Source: Pseudomonadota bacterium (GTDB taxonomy: Bacteria > Desulfobacterota > Syntrophorhabdia > Syntrophorhabdales > Syntrophorhabdaceae). Taken from it: DNA of 46,730 nt. The stretch is from NCBI GenBank assembly GCA_026388275.1, contig JAPLKB010000031.1:1-46730 (forward strand), read 5' to 3'. Below the pieces are notes generated by a model. The model was not told the origin of the DNA. It was given only the letters and a program-made list of their open reading frames with translations, and made no database searches. Both the position numbers and the translations under genes were made by a program. Positions 3,828 through 33,440 of the stretch are shown in pieces. Every line of letters begins with the position of its first letter. The first letter of the stretch is position 1.

Positions 3828-3856
3828 TTGACATTGTGCCGTTCTCTTTGTAGTAT
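3828..3856 (+). promoter_or_regulatory. sigma70-type promoter of left leader
   Basis: TTGACA at 3828-3833, a 17-base spacer, then TAGTAT at 3851-3856. The right-hand leader has a promoter starting with the same ten bases (TTGACATTGT), which supports both. Transcription would start near 3863 and give a leader of about 300 bases before the MauE gene. Confidence 0.6.
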
Positions 3857-3870
3857 ATATAGTTGTAACT

Positions 3871-4050
3871 CAAAAAGAAGGTTAAAAGAGAATGCGCGAA
3901 AAAATACAGATGTTTGCTCCATTAGACTGAGAAAAGCACAGGGAGCCCGTGCGGCTTCCCCTTGTGACTGTGTTCGCAGTTTCTCCGTCTTAATCCTTAC
4001 ATATTGCCTCTCAGGAGTCCGGCGCTGAAATCAGCGGCCGGATTTTTTTA
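3871..4050 (+). ncRNA. conserved structured leader, copy A (candidate riboswitch or attenuator)
   Basis: This stretch is closely matched by the minus strand of 9372-9547. The best conserved blocks are ATTAGACTGAGA, GGGAGCCCGTGCGGCTT, TGTGA, CGCA, TTTCTCCG, CTTAA, TGCCT and TCCGGCG. Differences cluster in loops, and some may keep pairing, as expected of a selected RNA. GGGAG and GTGCG can pair with CTCC and CGCA further on. It ends in an intrinsic terminator and lies between a promoter and coding sequence, the architecture of a metabolite-sensing leader. I cannot assign a known riboswitch class. Confidence 0.6.
4018..4049 (+). terminator. intrinsic terminator in leader A
   Basis: TCCGGCGCTG pairs with CAGCGGCCGGA (one bulged G) around a short AAAT loop, followed by seven T at 4043-4049. 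It lies upstream of the coding sequence, so it acts as the off state of an attenuator rather than an operon end. Confidence 0.75.
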
Positions 4051-4065
4051 TTTTGAGAGGTTTTC

Positions 4066-4158
4066 TTGTTAAATTACACACAAATGTGGTTGTATCCAAG
4101 CCTTGGTTTGAAGGTCATTATAGGTTTACTTATATCCTGTAACAATATATGGAGATAA
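4066..4158 (+). pseudogene. degenerate gene start, paralogue of the stub at 9214-9321
   Basis: Just after the leader terminator a frame TTG TTA AAT TAC ACA (LLNYTQMW...) runs 30 codons to TAA at 4156-4158. It aligns in DNA and in position with the ATG TCA AAT TAC ACA start of the stub downstream of leader B, including the GAGAGG/AGGAGG ribosome site. The start has drifted from ATG to TTG and the rest no longer resembles a protein. It stops ten bases before the MauE gene. Confidence 0.45.
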
Positions 4159-4168
4159 TAAAAAACCA

Positions 4169-4672
4169 ATGAAAAAACGGACAATGTCTCAAATCAGGGG
4201 TTTTATTTTAAAAATTCTGTTATCAGGCAGGCTTTATCTGCTTGTGCGAATCGCCTTGGCTGTTCTTTTTATTTATGCAGGAACATTAAAACTGATGAGC
4301 CCTAAAGCATTCGCCCGGGTCATTTCTCAGTATGATCTTTTGCCTGAACCTCTTTTACCTGTTGTTGCCATCGGACTTCCTATTATCGAAGTGCTTGCCG
4401 GCATCGCCCTTATTTTTGACCTCCGTTCGGGCCTTCACGGCGTTTCCGGCCTGATTTTACTCTTTGTTTTTGTCCTTGGATACGGAGTCTATAATGAAAT
4501 GGATGTTGACTGTGGCTGCTTCGGACCTGAAGAACTTGCAAATCAAAGAAGTCTGGTGCGGGCATTATATCGTGATCTCGCGCTCCTGGGTGGCGCCGCC
4601 TTTCTTTACTTGTCTCGACTGTCCCGTGGGCGTCGTTTTCTAAATGAATCTACACAAAATATAACCAAATAA
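4169..4672 (+). CDS. MauE/DoxX-family inner-membrane protein
   Basis: A 167-residue protein with about four hydrophobic membrane segments (near 24-42, 64-82, 88-107 and 135-150) and the loop motif DVDCGCFG typical of MauE-like proteins. MauE relatives are thought to handle disulfide or thiol exchange across the membrane for periplasmic partners. Here the partner is probably the secreted rhodanese that starts 14 bases downstream. Expression should depend on leader A. Start ATG 4169 has GGAGA 13 bases upstream, a rather long spacing. The exact substrate is unknown. Confidence 0.75.
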   Translation: MKKRTMSQIRGFILKILLSGRLYLLVRIALAVLFIYAGTLKLMSPKAFARVISQYDLLPEPLLPVVAIGLPIIEVLAGIALIFDLRSGLHGVSGLILLFVFVLGYGVYNEMDVDCGCFGPEELANQRSLVRALYRDLALLGGAAFLYLSRLSRGRRFLNESTQNITK

Positions 4673-4686
4673 AAGGAGGAGTTGAA

Positions 4687-5202
4687 ATGTTGTTTAAAAA
4701 AAGAATGGTTGTTTTATCAATTGCAATGCTGGCATTTTGTTTTATATTGTCAGGGGATGCTCTTGCTGCCTGGGGTGGAAAAGAGCTTGAGACGGAAAAG
4801 ATTGCCGTTACATTCGAGAAGGAAGTTGCACGGGGAGGCTACAAGGTCGTATCGACTGAAGAACTGAAGGGTTGGATCGACCAGAAAAAAGAAATGCTCA
4901 TCGTTGATACCATGCCTTTTGAAGCCAGCTACAAGAAAGAGCATATTCCCGGAGCTGTCAATTTTGTTCTGCCTATCCCTGAGATGACTCAGATGGACGA
5001 CAAGACCAAAGCTGACTTCGAGAAAATGCTCGGGCCGAACAAAGACCGGCTGATAGTTTTCTACTGCGGTTTTACCAAATGCACCCGCAGTCACAACGGC
5101 GCAATGTGGGCAGTTAAGCTGGGATACAAGAACATTTATCGTCAGCCCGGTGGAATTAAAGCTTGGTCTGAAGCCGATTATCCTGTAGAAAAAGTGAAAT
5201 AA
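4687..5202 (+). CDS. exported rhodanese-domain sulfurtransferase
   Basis: A 171-residue protein with a signal peptide ending ALA at about residue 27, so it is periplasmic. The rhodanese domain covers about 52-168: EELKGWIDQKKEMLIVDT, HIPGAVNF, then the active loop FYCGFTKCTRSH with Cys127 as the likely persulfide-bearing residue and Cys132/Arg134 in the loop, then a terminal GGIKAWSEADYPVEK. AGGAGG lies just before ATG 4687. It should carry sulfane sulfur (or selenium) in the periplasm, paired with the MauE-like protein. The second cysteine could form a disulfide with the first, which fits a thiol-relay role. Confidence 0.85.
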   Translation: MLFKKRMVVLSIAMLAFCFILSGDALAAWGGKELETEKIAVTFEKEVARGGYKVVSTEELKGWIDQKKEMLIVDTMPFEASYKKEHIPGAVNFVLPIPEMTQMDDKTKADFEKMLGPNKDRLIVFYCGFTKCTRSHNGAMWAVKLGYKNIYRQPGGIKAWSEADYPVEKVK

Positions 5203-5212
5203 TTTACAATGA

Positions 5213-5274
5213 TTTTCCCGTTTACGGTCAGGCCCCTGCAAGGGGCCGGCAAACGGGAAACCCCGGTTTGCCGG
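5213..5274. terminator. two mutually exclusive hairpins between convergent genes
   Basis: The first hairpin (5213-5260) pairs TTTCCCGTTT with AAACGGGAAA around an inner GGCCCCT/AGGGGCC stem. The second (5246-5274) pairs CCGGCAAAC with GTTTGCCGG and shares the 3' arm of the first. No long T run follows on either strand. It lies between the convergent rhodanese and radical SAM genes, where a bidirectional terminator is expected. Confidence 0.5.
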
Positions 5275-5298
5275 AGATCATGGCGGAAGAGGCAAACG

Positions 5299-6264
5299 TC
5301 ATATTGTCTGTCCCTGACAGGAACTGCCCGAACCGGCTGTGCAGCCGTAACAGTGATCCCCGACTATGATTTGACGGGCAGCAAGTTGTCCCATCTCAAA
5401 AGCGGAGATGTGATGCGGCGCACCATGATCTATCGTTAGGCCCAGCATCTGGTTAAAATCACAGTCATAAAGCATTCCATCCCAACCGACTGAGACGGTT
5501 GTCTTACACATCAATCCATTAAGGCTTGCCGGGTTGAAGGCTTTGATCAAGGTCTTCATATAACCCGCATAGTTGCCTGTCTTGAGAAGATAGTCCAGAT
5601 ATCGGCCTATGGGCATGTTTGTAATGCAGAATAAATGATTGAAATTTACCCCGTATTTTTCTCTGAAAGTTTCCCTATAAAGTAATTCCAGGCTGGCCTG
5701 GGAACCGGGAAGATAGGGGCCTGCAGGATTATGGACAAGGTCAAGGACAAGATCACTTCTATCCTGCCCGTAGCCCCTCGTGTTGAGTCTACGTATGACC
5801 TCAATCAATCTGGCGAATACGCCTCCCCCTCTCTGCCGATCAGTTATACGTGGGTCGACATGTGGTAAAGAAAGAACAATTTCAATATGATTGTCAGCAT
5901 AGAAATTAAATAATCCTTCATGCTCCTTATCGAGAAGAATCGTACCGTTGCTTCTCACAAGGACACGCCGATTCAGGGCAACACATTCCTGCAGAAACCA
6001 TCTGAAACGAGGATGCAATTCAGGGCTGCCTCCGGTTATATCGATGGCAGGTATGGGATGGTTCTTAAATACCTTGAGACACTGTTCCATGACCTCCCCG
6101 GTCATAATCTCAGGTCTTTGAGGCCCTGCTTCAACGTGACAGTGCCTGCATTGCAGATTGCACCGATAGCCTACATTTATCTGAAGAATTTCAACGCTTA
6201 CCGCATTGACCGGTTCCTGAACCTTTTGCTCAAATGACGGCACGGTCCTTGAGACATCCACCAT
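5299..6264 (-). CDS. ArsS-type radical SAM protein (radical SAM/Cys-rich, DUF3641)
   Basis: A 321-residue protein. The radical SAM cluster motif CNLQCRHC lies near residue 34, followed by GGSPELHP. The C-terminal Cys-rich DUF3641 part ends HCYGCTAGSGSSC, the usual ending of this family. Some family members carry selenocysteine, but here all positions are cysteine. The family is annotated as arsenosugar biosynthesis ArsS, though no ArsM methyltransferase is in the window, so arsenic chemistry is not proven here. AAGGAG precedes ATG 6264, only two bases after the upstream gene, so the two are translationally close. It is the last gene of the leader-B operon. Confidence 0.85.
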   Translation of the reverse strand: MVDVSRTVPSFEQKVQEPVNAVSVEILQINVGYRCNLQCRHCHVEAGPQRPEIMTGEVMEQCLKVFKNHPIPAIDITGGSPELHPRFRWFLQECVALNRRVLVRSNGTILLDKEHEGLFNFYADNHIEIVLSLPHVDPRITDRQRGGGVFARLIEVIRRLNTRGYGQDRSDLVLDLVHNPAGPYLPGSQASLELLYRETFREKYGVNFNHLFCITNMPIGRYLDYLLKTGNYAGYMKTLIKAFNPASLNGLMCKTTVSVGWDGMLYDCDFNQMLGLTIDHGAPHHISAFEMGQLAARQIIVGDHCYGCTAGSGSSCQGQTI

Positions 6265-6266
6265 TA

Positions 6267-6599
6267 CTACATCTCCTTCTTTTTAATGATCTTCCTCATC
6301 TGGGTCGAATGGGCAAGAACAATCCCCGCTACCATGGCAGCCCCCACATGAACGGCCTCCATCATCTCTTCACGAGATATGCCCAGCGACAGGCATTGGT
6401 TGGTGTATGCGTCAATACAATAGGGGCACTTCTGTGTCGCAGCTACAGCAAGCGCAATGAGTGATTTTTCCCTTTCACTCAGCTTGCCGGCTTTCATCGC
6501 ATCATCGTAATAGTCAAAATACTTCTGTCCCAACACCGGTGCATATTCCCCTATATTCTCGAAATCCTCAAGATCCTTCTTTTCATAATATTCTTCCAT
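6267..6599 (-). CDS. carboxymuconolactone decarboxylase-like (AhpD-fold) protein
   Basis: A 110-residue all-helical protein. KSLIALAVAATQKCPYCIDAY holds the CxxC redox pair of the AhpD fold (split: CPYC then IDAY), and the following helix EEMMEAVHVGAAMV is typical. Family members next to ArsS are annotated as arsenosugar-associated peroxidase-like proteins. It probably catalyses a thiol-dependent redox step. I chose ATG 6599, with AGGAG five bases upstream, over the GTG two codons earlier. It is followed directly by the radical SAM gene. Confidence 0.8.
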   Translation of the reverse strand: MEEYYEKKDLEDFENIGEYAPVLGQKYFDYYDDAMKAGKLSEREKSLIALAVAATQKCPYCIDAYTNQCLSLGISREEMMEAVHVGAAMVAGIVLAHSTQMRKIIKKKEM

Positions 6600-6668
6600 A
6601 AGCACTCCTCTCTGATTTTTATGTTTTTTGCCCTTGCATCTGGTCAGTCATATAACAATGACCTCTCT

Positions 6669-7307
6669 TCACTTTTTTGCATTGAATATAATAACAACGA
6701 GTGTGCCATCAGGCGGCAAGAGTTCCTTATTCGCTGTAAAGATCACTTCATTCCGTAGGTCAATTGCTCCATAAGTATAGGCAGAGTTGCTTGTAATACC
6801 AACAGGACAACTGTCGAGACACACAAGACACCCGGTCTTCTTTTTGAGCGCATTTACAAGGTTACCGCCAAAGCGAATAGCAAGAGGTTTTCCATTACTA
6901 TCTTTGATCATCTCATCCAGGCGATAGATCCTTTTTGCACCCTCCCATGTCACAAACACGTCAAGAAGATCTCCCTCCACGAAGGTTTTTTCCTTGTTAC
7001 TCATAGTCATATTATTGCCCGGCTTCAAGCCGATGTTCACAAGGCTTTCATGGAACGCCTTCGGGTCAGCTAGCCCGGCAAAAATAGCTTTATGGTCCAG
7101 CTTGCCCCCCTTGAATACTACACCGTGATGTGTTCGCTCGGGATGTTGATTGTTGACTTCTGCAAGGATGGAGACGCTCTTTTCTTTTGTATTAATGTTG
7201 AGCGGGTTATAAATTGTCAATATTGTTGCCTGTGAAAAAACTGAAGACGACACTAATAATGCACACAAAACAAATATCAGGGTCAATAAAAGCAGCTCCT
7301 TCTTCAT
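6669..7307 (-). CDS. secreted YdjY-domain protein
   Basis: A 212-residue protein with a signal peptide (hydrophobic residues about 4-25, SSSVFSQA cleavage region). The mature part resembles the YdjY domain: VVFKGGKLDHKAIFAGL, then FVEGDLLDVFVTWEG, and a conserved LVCLDSCPVG that may bind metal or be redox active. Such proteins sit beside anaerobic redox systems, with unknown biochemical role. I chose ATG 7307, with GGAGG ten bases upstream, rather than the earlier ATG 7346. It lies between the Fe-S/TVP38 fusion and the CMD-like gene on the same strand. Confidence 0.65.
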   Translation of the reverse strand: MKKELLLLTLIFVLCALLVSSSVFSQATILTIYNPLNINTKEKSVSILAEVNNQHPERTHHGVVFKGGKLDHKAIFAGLADPKAFHESLVNIGLKPGNNMTMSNKEKTFVEGDLLDVFVTWEGAKRIYRLDEMIKDSNGKPLAIRFGGNLVNALKKKTGCLVCLDSCPVGITSNSAYTYGAIDLRNEVIFTANKELLPPDGTLVVIIFNAKK

Positions 7308-7366
7308 ATCTGATTTTCCTCCATAATGGATAATTCCGGTCTTCATAGGCGCACATTAAAAACAGC

Positions 7367-9211
7367 TCATACCGGATGATCGTCCTCCCCCCGTTTAGCC
7401 TTGTACCACCGATAAAAAAGTGGGAATAATGAAACGAGTACAACAAGGACAAGACCGATAACGAAGGTCAGAGAAATTCTCCCTCGGATCAGATCGAGAA
7501 GAGAACTCGAAAAAACTATGAAGGCAATGCACGCGGGAAGCATGCAGAAAAAGGTGGTAACCGCATATTGCCGGAACCCTATTTTTGTAAGGCCGAAAGC
7601 GTAGTTGAGAAGATTGAACGGGAAAAGGGGGATAAGGCGAGTAAAAGCAACCACCTTCCATCCATGCTTCTCAACCCCTTGGTCAAGCCTTCTCCAGCGA
7701 GGACTTTTAAGCTTCCCCTCGACCCATTCACTTGCAAGGTACCGGGAAACAAGAAATGCCACACAGGCGCCTGCAGTGGAACCTGTTATTGTATAAACTA
7801 CTCCCCACAAGGGCCCAAAGAGAATGCCGCCGACAATAGTAATGGGAAGACCAGGAAGAAAGAAGGCAGGGGCAATGGTATAAACGAGCATGTAGACAAT
7901 CGGCGCCAGCGAGCCATAGCTCCCGATCCAGGTCCTGAGTGCTTGCTGTTCCAAGTATCGTGAAACGCCCGAAGTCTTAACCACTACAATGACAGCCGCC
8001 AGAAAAAACAGGAAGACAAGGAGCTTGGCCATTCCGCCTTTCTTCTGCTCTTCTGCCCCGGTGAATGTCCGTTCACGAGTGATTGTTGCAGGGACATGTT
8101 TCTTAAACCATTTTTTCATCCTAATCCGTTTCCAATAAGTAAGGGGAGGCTTCGTAACTTTTGCCTTGCCTGCATCGCTTTCCCAAAGGGTATCGAGGAT
8201 ATGTGCAGTCGGGCCAAGGCTGGAAAGCTTATTTGCACATCCTGCACAGTAAGTCACGATTTTTTTGCCACCGGTTTCCTCCTGACGGAGTCTCCCCCAC
8301 TTTCCTGCCAGATTATGATCAAGGGCGCTTACAGCTCCGCCCTCGCCACAGCAAAGTGTCCGGCAGCCGGCATGAGACATTTCTTCTACTATATATCCTT
8401 GTTTCTCGATGAGTTTTCTCACCGATTCGTGGATGGCAACCTCAAACCTGACCGCGCATGGATCATGGACAGTCACCTTGCCCTTCTCACCGTCGTTTAC
8501 ATCAATACTGCTCTCAGCAAGCACTTCGTAGATCGTTTTCGTTGAAAGACCTTTTCCGTAACGTGCAAATATCTTATGACAATTGGGACAGGCTACAATA
8601 ACATTCTTGACCCCATGTTCCACAAGGTAATCCCTCATCTCCCCGAACATAGATGTGAAGTGCTCTTCTCTGCCCAGATCGTGGGAAGGTTTTAAGCAGC
8701 AGTCGAGTACAATGCCGAGGGAAGATATCTTCTCTTTTAGCTTCTGGTACGAAAGGATTACCTTTTCAGACCTGGTACCCGATAGTGTACAGCCAGGAAA
8801 AAAGACTGTATCGCAGCCCTCCGGGAGTCCATAGTAGGAGTAGGTACGGGATGTGCCTCGCCGTTCGTAGCCCTTCAACACGTTGTGTTCCGGCAAGTCT
8901 CCTTTGCCACGCTTAACAGCCTCCTTTCGCATTTGAAGAAAGAGTTCGGCAGGGTCAACACCTGTGGGGCATACGGCGGTGCAGAGCCCGCAGAGGCTGC
9001 ATTCGAAGGGCATACCCTGGTCCTCTTTTCGCGCTGGGTCGTAATGATCCGCGATATCTTTCGGCTTCCCGTATTTTTTCAGGAACGCACACTCTTTCTG
9101 GCAGAGATCACACCTGATGCAGGCACCTGAAACCGTATCCAGTTTAAAACGCATTGACTGGCTTGATTCGGCCTGACTGTCCGGGGATATTTCTCTCTTC
9201 CTATCTGTCAT
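7367..9211 (-). CDS. Fe-S oxidoreductase (HdrD/GlpC-like) fused to a TVP38/DedA membrane domain
   Basis: A 614-residue protein with two parts. Residues about 30-105 hold two [4Fe-4S] motifs (CIRCDLCQKEC and CSLCGLCTAVCP). Residues about 135-340 hold two CCG-type domains (FFPGCTLSG, LDCCLKPSHDLG, HDPCAVR, CRTLCCGEGG). After a basic linker, residues about 390-610 form a TVP38/TMEM64 membrane domain with several helices (PGLPITIVGGILFGPLWG; FTRLIPLFPFNLLNYAFGL). The fusion suggests cytoplasmic electron transfer coupled to a membrane process. I favour ATG 9211, which follows the upstream stub's stop at once; ATG 9226 is also possible. Confidence 0.8.
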   Translation of the reverse strand: MTDRKREISPDSQAESSQSMRFKLDTVSGACIRCDLCQKECAFLKKYGKPKDIADHYDPARKEDQGMPFECSLCGLCTAVCPTGVDPAELFLQMRKEAVKRGKGDLPEHNVLKGYERRGTSRTYSYYGLPEGCDTVFFPGCTLSGTRSEKVILSYQKLKEKISSLGIVLDCCLKPSHDLGREEHFTSMFGEMRDYLVEHGVKNVIVACPNCHKIFARYGKGLSTKTIYEVLAESSIDVNDGEKGKVTVHDPCAVRFEVAIHESVRKLIEKQGYIVEEMSHAGCRTLCCGEGGAVSALDHNLAGKWGRLRQEETGGKKIVTYCAGCANKLSSLGPTAHILDTLWESDAGKAKVTKPPLTYWKRIRMKKWFKKHVPATITRERTFTGAEEQKKGGMAKLLVFLFFLAAVIVVVKTSGVSRYLEQQALRTWIGSYGSLAPIVYMLVYTIAPAFFLPGLPITIVGGILFGPLWGVVYTITGSTAGACVAFLVSRYLASEWVEGKLKSPRWRRLDQGVEKHGWKVVAFTRLIPLFPFNLLNYAFGLTKIGFRQYAVTTFFCMLPACIAFIVFSSSLLDLIRGRISLTFVIGLVLVVLVSLFPLFYRWYKAKRGEDDHPV

Positions 9212-9213
9212 CT

Positions 9214-9321
9214 TTACACCTGCCATGTAACCTGACAGATACCACTCAGGATAGATAGGAGTACATCATGGGTTTGAAGATTTAGACCTAAATCCTGCCA
9301 TATTTTTGTGTAATTTGACAT
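9214..9321 (-). pseudogene. 35-codon stub resembling the start of an HgdB/BcrC-type reductase
   Basis: A perfect AGGAGG precedes ATG 9321, and the frame reads MSNYTKIWQDLGLNLQTHD, then about 16 more residues to TAA 9214-9216. The first 28 or so residues resemble the N-terminus of 2-hydroxyacyl-CoA dehydratase/double-cubane reductase subunits, which begin with a similar KIWxxLGxxLxxHD stretch. The rest of that gene is missing and the stop lies two bases before the next ATG. It could still act as a translated leader peptide coupling ribosomes into the downstream gene. The homology is from memory and rests on a short segment. Confidence 0.45.
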
Positions 9322-9371
9322 TAAACCTCCTATGCGATAAATCACCCTGTCAGGGTATTAGCCCAAGGGGT

Positions 9372-9547
9372 AATAAAAAATCCGGCCGCTGGTTTCCGCG
9401 CCGGATTCCATGGAGGCAACTCAAGGGTTAAGGCGGAGAAATTGCGGTGACAATCACAAATGAAAGCCGCACGGGCTCCCAATATGTCTCTCAGTCTAAT
9501 GGGATAAAAATATCTGCTATTCTGTGCATAGTCTTTCCACCTTTTTG
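9372..9547 (-). ncRNA. conserved structured leader, copy B (candidate riboswitch or attenuator)
   Basis: Second copy of the leader seen at 3871-4050, in the opposite orientation. It shares long identical blocks (ATTAGACTGAGA, GGGAGCCCGTGCGGCTT, CAGCGGCCGGATTTTTT) and the same order of shorter ones. It lies between promoter 9556-9585 and the stub plus Fe-S/TVP38 operon, so it should control the minus-strand operon down to the ArsS-type gene. A test against riboswitch covariance models would settle its class. I see no match to TPP, cobalamin, glycine or SAM signatures. Confidence 0.6.
9375..9405 (-). terminator. intrinsic terminator in leader B
   Basis: On the minus strand TCCGGCGCGG and CAGCGGCCGGA pair around a GAAACC loop and are followed by six T. 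It matches the terminator of leader A in sequence and place, before the coding region. Confidence 0.75.
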
Positions 9548-9555
9548 AAAAAATA

Positions 9556-9585
9556 ATTTTAACTGAATAAGTTCTACAATGTCAA
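9556..9585 (-). promoter_or_regulatory. sigma70-type promoter of right leader
   Basis: On the minus strand TTGACA (9585-9580), an 18-base spacer and TAAAAT (9561-9556). The first ten bases equal those of the left promoter. It overlaps the 3' end of the preceding glycosyltransferase gene. Confidence 0.6.
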
Positions 9586-30335: not shown

Positions 30336-33300
30336 GTGGAGAAAGAAATAGTGGAAAAAGAACAGATTGAGCAGTTTTGTAAAAGTCTTGCAGACAATAA
30401 TGTCGGAGATGTTATGGTTGTCGGGGGAGGGATCAGCGGCATTCAAGCCTCTCTTGATCTTGCCTCGGCGGGTTTTAAGGTCTACCTGGTTGACAAGTCG
30501 CCTGCTATTGGCGGCCACATGGCTCAGCTTGACAAAACCTTCCCGACCAATGACTGTTCCATGTGTATTGAATCTCCTAAGTTTATTGAATGTCATAGAC
30601 ATCCCAACATAGAAATTTTGACCTATACTGAGGTTGACAGGATAGAGGGAGAAGCAGGCGAATTCAAAGTGACCCTGAATAAAAAACCCAGATATATTGA
30701 AGAAGAGAAATGTACGGGTTGCGGTACCTGTGTAGAATTCTGCCCGATCAATGTCAAGGATGAATATAATCAGAACCTGTCTTTAAATAAAGCCGTTCAT
30801 ATATATTTTTCTCAGGCAGTTCCCCTTGTCACTTATATAGATCCTGAAAAGTGCTCCTTCCTTCAGAACGGGAGATGTACTATCTGTGCAGGTGTCTGTA
30901 AGAATAAGGCAATAAATCTTTATCAAAAGCCGGAAAGAGTAGAAATAGAGGTAGGGGCGATAGTCCTGTCGCCGGGTTTTGATGCCTTTGACCCTAAGTT
31001 AAGAGGCGACTACGGTTATGGTAAGATGGAGAATGTGGTAACAAGCCTCGACTTTGAACGGATATTGTGCGCTACCGGGCCATATGAAGGTGAGATAAGA
31101 CGCCCTTCTGACGGGAGGCATCCGCATAAAATAGCCTGGATTCAATGTGTGGGCTCCAGACAGGTTATTGAAGGCGGCAACAGATATTGTTCAGCTGTAT
31201 GCTGTGCTTACACCCAGAAGCAAGTGATTTTGACAAAAGACCATGATGCCGATGCTGAGTGTACAATATTCCACAATGATATCCGTTCCTATGGAAAGGA
31301 TTTTGAACGATTCTACCAGAGAGCGGAAGACCTTCCCGGAATCAAGTTTATAAGAAGCTATGTATCAATAGGAAAAGAGATCCCGGAAAGCAAGAATGTA
31401 ACTATAAGATACTCTACTTTTGATAATGGAGTTAAAGAAGAAGAATTCGATATGGTAGTGTTGTCGGTTGGGTTAAACCCTCCCGGTGATGCTGAAGAAC
31501 TGGCGAATAAATTCGGTGTCGAACTCGGTCCTCAGGGATTCTGTAAAATTAATCCTTTTAATCCTATGGAGACCTCCCGTCCGGGAGTTTTTATAAGCGG
31601 AGCCTTCCAGGGTCCGATAGATATCCCGGAGTCGGTTGTGACAGCCAGCGGGGCGGATGCCCTTTGCAGTCAACTTCTTGCCGCAAGGCGTGGACAACTT
31701 GCAAAAACAAGGGAATATCCAGCGGAAAGGGATGTCTCGGAAGAGGAACTGAAAGTCGGGGTTTTTGTATGTCACTGCGGAGCTAATATTGGAAGAGTTG
31801 TCAATGTTCCCTCGGTAGTCGAATACGCTCTGACCTTAGATAATGTTGCCCACGCTCAGGAAGCCCTGTTTGCATGTTCTACCGATACTGCCCGGCAGAT
31901 ATCTAATACGATCAAGGAAAAGGGACTCAACCGTGTTGTTGTTGCAGCTTGCACCCCCAGAACGCATGAACCGTTGTTTCGAGACACTGTACGTGAAGGC
32001 GGAATAAATCAATATTACTATGAAATGGCTAATATCAGGGAACATTGTTCCTGGGTCCATTCCCGTGAAAAGGAAGTTGCCACCAAAAAAGCAAAGGATA
32101 TCGTCCGGATGTCTGTAGCACGGGCCTGCTATTTGGAGCCGTTACAGGAATATGAGCTGCCGGTTGACAAAAGAGCCCTGGTGGTCGGAGGAGGCGTGGC
32201 AGGCATGACCAGCGCCCTGAGCATAGCCGAACAGGGATTTGAGGTTTTCCTACTGGAAAAAGATAAGGATCTGGGTGGAATGGCTCGAAGGATTCACTAC
32301 ACGCTTGAAGGTCAGGATGTCCAGGAGTATTTACAAGATCTTATTCACAAAGTTTACAGGCACCCATCGCTTCATGTATTTACCGATTGTACCATTAAAG
32401 ATGTTTCCGGTTACGTAGGAAATTTTATAACCAGAATAACGTCCGAAGGAATGGACAAGGAGATACACCACGGGGTAGCCGTTGTTGCTACAGGTGCTGA
32501 AGAATATAAACCAACCGAGTACCTTTACGGGAAAGATGACAGGGTTATGACTCAGTTGGAACTGGAAGAAAAAATCACGAATGGAGACGAAAGGCTTATT
32601 AACTCCGAGTGTACGGTGATGATACAGTGTGTGGGCTGCAGAAATGAAGACAGAAACTACTGCAGCAGGATATGCTGCAGCGAGTCTATAAAAAATGCTT
32701 TGAAACTGAAAAAAATGAACCCCGGAATGGATATATATATCCTCTACAGAGATATGAGAACCTACGGGTTCAGAGAGGAATATTACTGGGAAGCGGCAGA
32801 TAAAGGCGTAAGGTTCGTCCGCTATGAGGCGGATGATAAGCCCCAGGTCGAAGCTGCTGTTGAGAGCGGCAAAAAAATTCTGAGGGTTACGGTAACACAT
32901 CCTGTTTTAGGTAAGAAACTTGCTATAGACGCAGATTCAGTTGCTCTGGCTGCAGCCGTTATTCCTTCTGAAGGAAACAAGAAAATGGCAGCATTTTTCA
33001 AAGTATCTTTAAACCAGGATGGTTTTTTCCAGGAAGCCCATGTCAAATTAAGACCTGTTGATTTTGCCGCAGATGGTGTTTTCCTCTGCGGGACTGCGCA
33101 CTATCCCAAGCATATACCTGAAGCGATCAGTCAGGCTTATGGAGCAGCCGGCCGGGCTGTAACGATCCTTTCAAAGGATCAGGTCACAGCATCAGGAGCT
33201 GTTTGCGAGGTGAAAGAAAGTGATTGTGTAACCTGCGGGGCTTGTATTTCAGTTTGTAAATATGGCGCTATAGACTTTTATGAAACACAGCAGGGCAGAA

Positions 33301-33440
33301 AAGCCAGGGTTAACCCTATTCTCTGTAAAGGAGACGGTCTTTGTAATCAGAAGTGCCCAACAGGGGCAATTTCTCTGAAACATTTTACCGATGAAGAGCT
33401 TTTCCACCAGATTGATGAAGCGATTCCAGCCCTTATGTAA
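30336..33440 (+). CDS. bamE: BamE-like HdrA-type FAD/Fe-S subunit (two HdrA-like halves)
   Basis: A 1034-residue protein about twice the size of a simple HdrA. The first half has the FAD site VMVVGGGISGIQASLDLASA with IGGHMAQLDKTFPTNDCSMC, then ferredoxin motifs CTGCGTCVEFCP and CTICAGVCKNKA. The second half repeats an FAD site, ALVVGGGVAGMTSALSIAEQ with LGGMARR, plus a VQCVGCRNEDRNYCS-like cysteine set. Two [4Fe-4S] motifs end it: CVTCGACISVCKYGAID and CKGDGLCNQKCPTGA. HdrA-type FAD is the bifurcation centre in methanogens; the same role is inferred here. GTG start at 30336. Confidence 0.88.
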   Translation: MEKEIVEKEQIEQFCKSLADNNVGDVMVVGGGISGIQASLDLASAGFKVYLVDKSPAIGGHMAQLDKTFPTNDCSMCIESPKFIECHRHPNIEILTYTEVDRIEGEAGEFKVTLNKKPRYIEEEKCTGCGTCVEFCPINVKDEYNQNLSLNKAVHIYFSQAVPLVTYIDPEKCSFLQNGRCTICAGVCKNKAINLYQKPERVEIEVGAIVLSPGFDAFDPKLRGDYGYGKMENVVTSLDFERILCATGPYEGEIRRPSDGRHPHKIAWIQCVGSRQVIEGGNRYCSAVCCAYTQKQVILTKDHDADAECTIFHNDIRSYGKDFERFYQRAEDLPGIKFIRSYVSIGKEIPESKNVTIRYSTFDNGVKEEEFDMVVLSVGLNPPGDAEELANKFGVELGPQGFCKINPFNPMETSRPGVFISGAFQGPIDIPESVVTASGADALCSQLLAARRGQLAKTREYPAERDVSEEELKVGVFVCHCGANIGRVVNVPSVVEYALTLDNVAHAQEALFACSTDTARQISNTIKEKGLNRVVVAACTPRTHEPLFRDTVREGGINQYYYEMANIREHCSWVHSREKEVATKKAKDIVRMSVARACYLEPLQEYELPVDKRALVVGGGVAGMTSALSIAEQGFEVFLLEKDKDLGGMARRIHYTLEGQDVQEYLQDLIHKVYRHPSLHVFTDCTIKDVSGYVGNFITRITSEGMDKEIHHGVAVVATGAEEYKPTEYLYGKDDRVMTQLELEEKITNGDERLINSECTVMIQCVGCRNEDRNYCSRICCSESIKNALKLKKMNPGMDIYILYRDMRTYGFREEYYWEAADKGVRFVRYEADDKPQVEAAVESGKKILRVTVTHPVLGKKLAIDADSVALAAAVIPSEGNKKMAAFFKVSLNQDGFFQEAHVKLRPVDFAADGVFLCGTAHYPKHIPEAISQAYGAAGRAVTILSKDQVTASGAVCEVKESDCVTCGACISVCKYGAIDFYETQQGRKARVNPILCKGDGLCNQKCPTGAISLKHFTDEELFHQIDEAIPALM

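Follow-up and report, generated by a model that had tools for sequence, protein, structure and literature searches.

The first 46,730 nucleotides of contig JAPLKB010000031.1 from a Syntrophorhabdaceae genome (assembly GCA_026388275.1; the whole stretch is hereafter called the window) carry two related RNA leaders, each of which is, judging from its sequence, very probably a ribosome-mediated transcription attenuator that senses the decoding of selenocysteine (Sec). The sensed signal would most likely be charged Sec-tRNA read by the ribosome, and not a small molecule bound by the RNA. The proposal draws on a conserved reading frame with an in-frame UGA, a covarying hairpin behind this codon, a terminator and an antiterminator that exclude each other, the Sec machinery of the same genomes, and an association with cysteine (Cys) isozymes and selenium genes.

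The two leaders, copy A (+, 3871–4050) and copy B (−, 9375–9546), lie in opposite orientation before converging operons and align over their whole length with 75% identity (E = 6e-26). Both open on TTGACATTGT promoter −35 sequences, of which TTGAC(A/T) is conserved across most copies of the family, and both are closed by near-identical intrinsic terminators (TCCGGCGC..GCGGCCGGA followed by a T-run). An earlier note, made from the letters of the window, had described them as two inverted copies of one leader with a common promoter start and near-identical terminators, and this description stands. Their elements are as follows:

3828–3856 (+): promoter of copy A, read in the sequence (TTGACA at 3828–3833, a 17-nt spacer, TAGTAT at 3851–3856)
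3892–3993 (+): leader open reading frame (ORF) of copy A, MREKIQMFAPLD-U-EKHREPVRLPLVTVFAVSPS-stop, with an AAGG resembling a Shine-Dalgarno ahead of it; frame kept in 39/39 counted copies
3928–3930 (+): UGA within the frame of leader ORF A, put forward as Sec codon and sensor; UGA at the same place in 39/42 hits
3941–3959 (+): hairpin A, resembling a Sec insertion sequence (SECIS), GGGAGCC-CGTGC-GGCTTCC, 10 nt after the UGA, with G as second loop position; identified by pairing and covariation
3968–3989 (+): antiterminator strand A, formed by the last ORF codons; duplex −16.1 vs terminator −20.9 kcal/mol
4018–4049 (+): intrinsic terminator A, TCCGGCGCTGAAATCAGCGGCCGGA and T-run
4007–4060 (+): CCTCTCA (4007–4013), complementary to the downstream Shine-Dalgarno TGAGAGG (4054–4060), with the terminator enclosed; self vs swapped partners z −3.9 across the family
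9580–9585 (−): −35 element TTGACA of the copy B promoter, read in the sequence
9428–9529 (−): leader ORF B, MHRIADIFIPLD-U-ETYWEPVRLSFVIVTAISPP-stop
9491–9493 (−): in-frame UGA of leader ORF B
9462–9480 (−): SECIS-like hairpin of copy B
9432–9453 (−): antiterminator strand B; duplex −18.8 vs terminator −16.5 kcal/mol
9375–9405 (−): intrinsic terminator B and T-run

An ORF of about 33 codons with an in-frame UGA is encoded by 39 of the 42 leader hits examined, the three others being degenerate and lacking either the UGA or the frame. It starts at ATG, sometimes at GTG or TTG, behind an AAGG-type Shine-Dalgarno in most copies, and specifies about 12 residues typically ending in PL[GD], the UGA at codon 13 and then typically 20 residues ending in AVSPP. 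From the UGA up to the second stop, no copy contains a frame-0 stop (0/39), whereas the other two frames are interrupted in 22 and 12 copies. The distance between the two is 63 nt in 36 copies, 60 in two and 69 in one, i.e., it varies only by multiples of three and leaves 19–22 open codons beyond the UGA (20 in 36 copies), while the second stop itself is TAA (28), TGA (6) or TAG (5). Upstream of the UGA and over the last codons, variability is highest at third codon positions, a pattern not shared by the hairpin stretch. Finally, none of the leader copies among the hits examined has Cys at the UGA position, which is expected for a sensor, unlike for an enzyme.

The hairpin located 10 nt after the UGA has 7 bp and a 5-nt loop, the second base of which is always G, as has been noted for the conserved SECIS loop G (PMC1794560). 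Across 33 sequences, 95.7% of its alignment cells are paired and its covariation exceeds that of 500/500 shuffles. Moreover, it can be compared with the SECIS of Sec-coded selD genes from the same genomes (UGA-N11-AGGUC-CGGGU-GACCU vs UGA-N10-GGGAGCC-CGGGU-GGCUUCC in the leader), whose CGGGU loop and spacing match those of many leaders in relatives. An outer stem around the SECIS-like hairpin, GAGAAAC/GUUUCUC (85.7% paired), overlaps the antiterminator; it may exist, though the attenuator model does not need it.

The intrinsic terminator precedes the first structural gene, and its U-tract is absent only from diverged copies. When segment pairs were scanned without bias, comparing self with swapped partners, the last ORF codons and the terminator ranked top (z −4.7): the strand ACC-GUG-UUC-GCA-GUU-UCU-CCG-CC is complementary to almost the whole terminator hairpin, and terminator and antiterminator are therefore mutually exclusive. 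The antiterminator duplex has a mean energy of −24.5 kcal/mol (z −5.8 vs swapped partners) and beats the terminator in most copies; its 19 pairs are formed in 90.6% of alignment cells, compared to 28–48% when slid, and the 10 terminator pairs in 92.2%, with a steep drop when slid. In ensemble folding, a ribosome placed on the second stop abolishes the antiterminator in 32/32 copies, while with a ribosome at the UGA and a terminator whose 3′ arm is still to be transcribed, most copies form the antiterminator. Whole-leader equilibrium folding shows mostly the terminator, which neither proves nor excludes a switch. A further pairing brackets the terminator, between a CCUCC stretch ahead of it and the Shine-Dalgarno that follows, whereas a long-range pairing between the Shine-Dalgarno region and the last codons, seen in single-sequence folds of the window copies, was not kept across relatives by eye and was set aside. 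The earlier note had taken the conserved, seemingly unpaired blocks of the leaders for signs of a ligand-binding RNA. These blocks turn out to be codons, the SECIS-like hairpin and the antiterminator strand; because of the stop-free frame and of length changes restricted to multiples of three, this part of the note is rejected, and a ligand-binding riboswitch was dropped once the reading frame had been recognised.

Under the proposed mechanism, a ribosome would initiate on the leader ORF and reach the UGA and its SECIS-like hairpin. With Sec-tRNA delivered by SelB, the UGA would be decoded and the ribosome would continue over 20 codons to the second stop, where it would mask the antiterminator strand, so that the terminator would fold and the operon be off. 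When Sec-tRNA is lacking, a release factor would free the ribosome at the UGA and leave the antiterminator strand exposed; pairing of the latter with the emerging terminator would then let RNA polymerase enter the operon. The operons switched on in this way would encode Cys stand-ins for selenoproteins, together with selenium-supply functions. We infer from sequence that the UGA is read as Sec, that the fold is set by the position of the ribosome and that regulation runs in this direction, the last point following from the anatomy of the leader and agreeing with the Cys-isozyme content of the operons.

The leader recurs far beyond chance. Using BLAST, a third copy was found elsewhere in the window's own genome (G000:C16) and, across 60 related genomes, about 20 further copies were found in relatives. 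A covariance model built from 23 copies, a search suggested by the earlier note, yielded 41 hits in 22 of the 46 genomes of the order (Syntrophorhabdales-type Desulfobacterota). A strict sequence pattern, which misses distant forms of the leader, retrieved 15 stretches from 257 Gb of named prokaryote genomes, all from deltaproteobacterial metagenome-assembled genomes, several of them titled Syntrophorhabdus, Syntrophorhabdales, Syntrophaceae or Syntrophus. With a broader model, diverged members appeared in other orders of Desulfobacterota. At the Rfam gathering score, no family matched the leader region, and permissive searches returned chance matches only; the note's view of a shared cis-regulatory leader of thiol/selenium-type operons, outside known RNA classes, agrees with these results and with the many genomic copies before related genes. 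The sole Rfam gathering match in the window is a bacterial small signal recognition particle RNA (RF00169, 20956–21053, −). Weak covariance-model matches in one genome (G095) and a matched stretch in another (G158) look spurious and were rejected; just downstream of the latter, a leader-like ORF lies before YedE. Decayed copies of the leader occur at two loci (L090 and L093), one with UAA replacing the UGA and the other with CGA.

The window genome encodes selB, a tRNA-Sec with a UCA anticodon, and Sec-coded FdhA, SelD and HdrA, and in each of the 21 leader genomes tested, selB or tRNA-Sec scores above the cut-off. Within the order, the genes behind the leaders encode HdrA-MvhD-SelD, FdhA, YedF with a cysteine desulfurase, a double-cubane reductase with its activator, MetNIQ-like transporters, and another selB accompanied by a selC*-like tRNA, the latter pair following the leader immediately in G023 and G012. 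Leaders from other orders stand upstream of genes for YedE, MauE/rhodanese, double-cubane reductase and, in one case, a Sec-coded SelD. YedE, YedF and their neighbours had been tied to selenium earlier by comparative genomics (PMC5322559). A regulatory codon of the UGA/Sec kind is in keeping with the metabolic role of the genes that follow it. Within the order, the HdrA, FdhA and SelD proteins linked to a leader carry Cys in 15/15 cases, in contrast to their unlinked relatives from the same genome set, which have UGA at that residue in 30/33.

Some individual loci can be added. The 92-nt tRNA-Sec-like genes at L083:5402–5493 (+) and L084:6507–6598 (−) have a GCA (Cys) anticodon and directly precede an additional selB and an HdrA operon of the Cys type, the whole set lying downstream of a Sec leader; they resemble the selC* tRNA-Cys/selB* pairs as these are presented in the part of PMC7609411 that reviews them. 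At L189, a leader stands before a selD gene with an in-frame UGA of its own (GGG-U-GTKLGPGDL), and in other orders (L187, L198 and L197), leader-like UGA/SECIS ORFs stand before YedE-type selenium transporter genes, with hairpins lacking a clear U-tract. Within the window, a Cys-type HdrA (30336–33413, +) is 68% identical to the leader-linked HdrA, without a detected leader, while the Sec-coded HdrA of the window genome lies on another contig (G000:C46).

Taken together, it is on balance probable that a class of Sec-codon attenuators, transcriptional in Syntrophorhabdales and perhaps translational elsewhere, spans several orders of Desulfobacterota and places Cys isozymes, genes for the uptake and mobilisation of selenium, and selC*/selB* Cys delivery under joint control as a selenium-starvation regulon, with stop-codon recoding serving as the selenium sensor.

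Some observations weigh against the attenuator proposal. The co-occurrence of leader and Sec machinery is uninformative because nearly all relatives possess this machinery, and the contrast between leader-linked Cys and unlinked UGA forms (Fisher P 7e-10) comes from a test that takes no account of common descent among the loci. In G432, a distant leader stands before a Sec-coded SelD, a misfit with a pure Cys-substitute rule. More than half of the copies, the two of the window among them, favour the terminator over the antiterminator at equilibrium, so that the switch must be kinetic, or leaky, in those copies, and antiterminator pairing is weak in copy A (−16.1 vs −20.9 for the terminator). 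Finally, the distant leaders devoid of a U-tract may act on translation instead.

Three other explanations were considered, all of which we regard as improbable. The ORF might be a genuine selenopeptide gene of about 33 codons with a function of its own, ended by the terminator, the downstream genes being reached by chance read-through. The conservation of PL[GD]-U, REP and AVSPP across 39 copies speaks for such a peptide, but its most conserved part is the stretch pairing with the terminator, which RNA pairing explains; moreover, the few bases between terminator and gene hold no evident separate promoter at most loci and the operons are specifically those of Cys isozymes and selenium genes, which makes this explanation quite unlikely. 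An attenuator decoding Sec with the opposite sign, in which read-through turns the operon on (for instance, through release of the downstream Shine-Dalgarno when a ribosome occupies the second stop), has a slightly smaller chance of being correct. It would make use of the CCUCC behind the stop, which pairs with this Shine-Dalgarno and would sit at the edge of the second-stop ribosome, and it would suit the leader preceding a Sec-coded SelD; yet the antiterminator strand lies under that very ribosome, leaving only the terminator, and the linked isozymes are Cys forms, which in related systems are expressed under selenium depletion (PMC11097638).

The least credible explanation holds that the UGA is the ordinary stop of a 12-residue leader peptide and that the rest is a structured RNA, such as an unknown riboswitch. 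Although the region does fold and covary without matching any Rfam class, the frame remains open for some 20 codons up to a second stop of variable identity and constant position, the absence of frame-0 stops is not shared by the other frames (0/39 vs 22 and 12), and the hairpin matches the SECIS of genuine Sec genes in both position and loop. A Sec-sensing attenuator that is off when Sec-tRNA is available thus remains our preferred reading.

The operons of the window fit the selenium-linked gene content seen elsewhere. Their genes, and the gene relics behind the leaders, are the following:

4169–4672 (+): MauE/DoxX-like membrane protein under leader A (weak BT_3928-family match)
4687–5202 (+): rhodanese, Cys relative of the selenoprotein TsoB (NF045694, 110.8 bits, below the model cut-off)
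7367–9226 (−): Fe-S dicluster/TVP38-like fusion protein under leader B (NF045663 diclust_near_Sec, partial, below cut-off)
6669–7307 (−): YdjY-domain protein (NF040466)
6267–6605 (−): arsenosugar biosynthesis-associated peroxidase-like (AhpD-type) protein (TIGR04169 perox_w_seleSAM, above cut-off)
5299–6264 (−): radical SAM (seleno)protein ArsS, in a form that lacks an internal UGA (TIGR04167 rSAM_SeCys, 412 bits)
4066–4113 (+): remnant of a double-cubane reductase gene (5′ end) behind leader A (LLNYTQMW..LGL, cf. MSNYTQMW..LGL starts in relatives)
9214–9321 (−): remnant of a double-cubane reductase gene (5′ end) behind leader B (MSNYTKIWQDLGLNLQTHDVLLSILSG.., read in the sequence, cf. full-length genes)

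The gene order of the MauE locus under leader A recurs behind an independent leader in another genome (G430), and a UGA-containing relative of the rhodanese is encoded elsewhere in the window genome (G000:C25); no Sec form of the window ArsS was found in the six genomes searched. Because relics of double-cubane reductase genes follow both window leaders, the leader may have moved, as a cassette, out of a double-cubane reductase locus.

No description of a UGA/Sec-dependent leader attenuator was found in the literature searched, which was not exhaustive and left subscription papers mostly outside, and the words “attenuat-”, “leader” and “upstream” are all absent from a 2026 review of the prokaryotic selenoproteome. 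Within the limits of that search, the leader would be a ribosome-mediated attenuator whose sensor is of a novel type. Selenium sensing is an open question even where the switch between Sec and Cys isozymes is well studied (PMC11097638). If the proposal is true, the leader reads the end product directly, through the decoding of one UGA, which would answer the question of selenium sensing in these bacteria and supply a naturally occurring example of a transcriptional switch that works by stop-codon recoding. Furthermore, it offers a compact selenium reporter and a search signature for further regulons, as well as a possible explanation for the control of selC*/selB*.

In ribosome-mediated attenuation of the trp/his type, a leader ORF with a regulatory codon governs the choice between terminator and antiterminator. 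The Sec leader is alike in its short ORF, its regulatory codon, its mutually exclusive antiterminator and terminator, and its proposed feedback on the supply of the cognate charged tRNA. In contrast, it would rely on a stop recoded as Sec (UGA) and accompanied by a SECIS-like hairpin, and failed decoding would lead to release upstream of the antiterminator instead of stalling on it, so that a single codon would be enough. The 5′ region of selAB in E. coli contains a SECIS-like element bound by SelB, and both systems would use a SECIS-type hairpin for selenium-responsive control; to our knowledge, however, the selAB element is not a UGA within a leader ORF with a terminator, whereas decoding itself is the proposed sensor in the Sec leader. 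In Methanococcus maripaludis, the protein repressor HrsM (LysR_Se) has Cys isozymes expressed under selenium scarcity, its selenium sensing and signal transduction being unknown according to PMC11097638, and fdhF_Cys of Treponema primitia is under selenium control according to the passage of PMC6288185 that cites Matson 2010. As far as these sources describe them, both resemble the Sec leader in that Cys isozymes are on when selenium is scarce, but the leader, unlike HrsM, needs no regulator protein. Finally, the selC* tRNA-Cys/selB* system (Mukai 2017, as covered in the relevant part of the review PMC7609411) would itself become selenium-responsive through the leader in G023 and G012.

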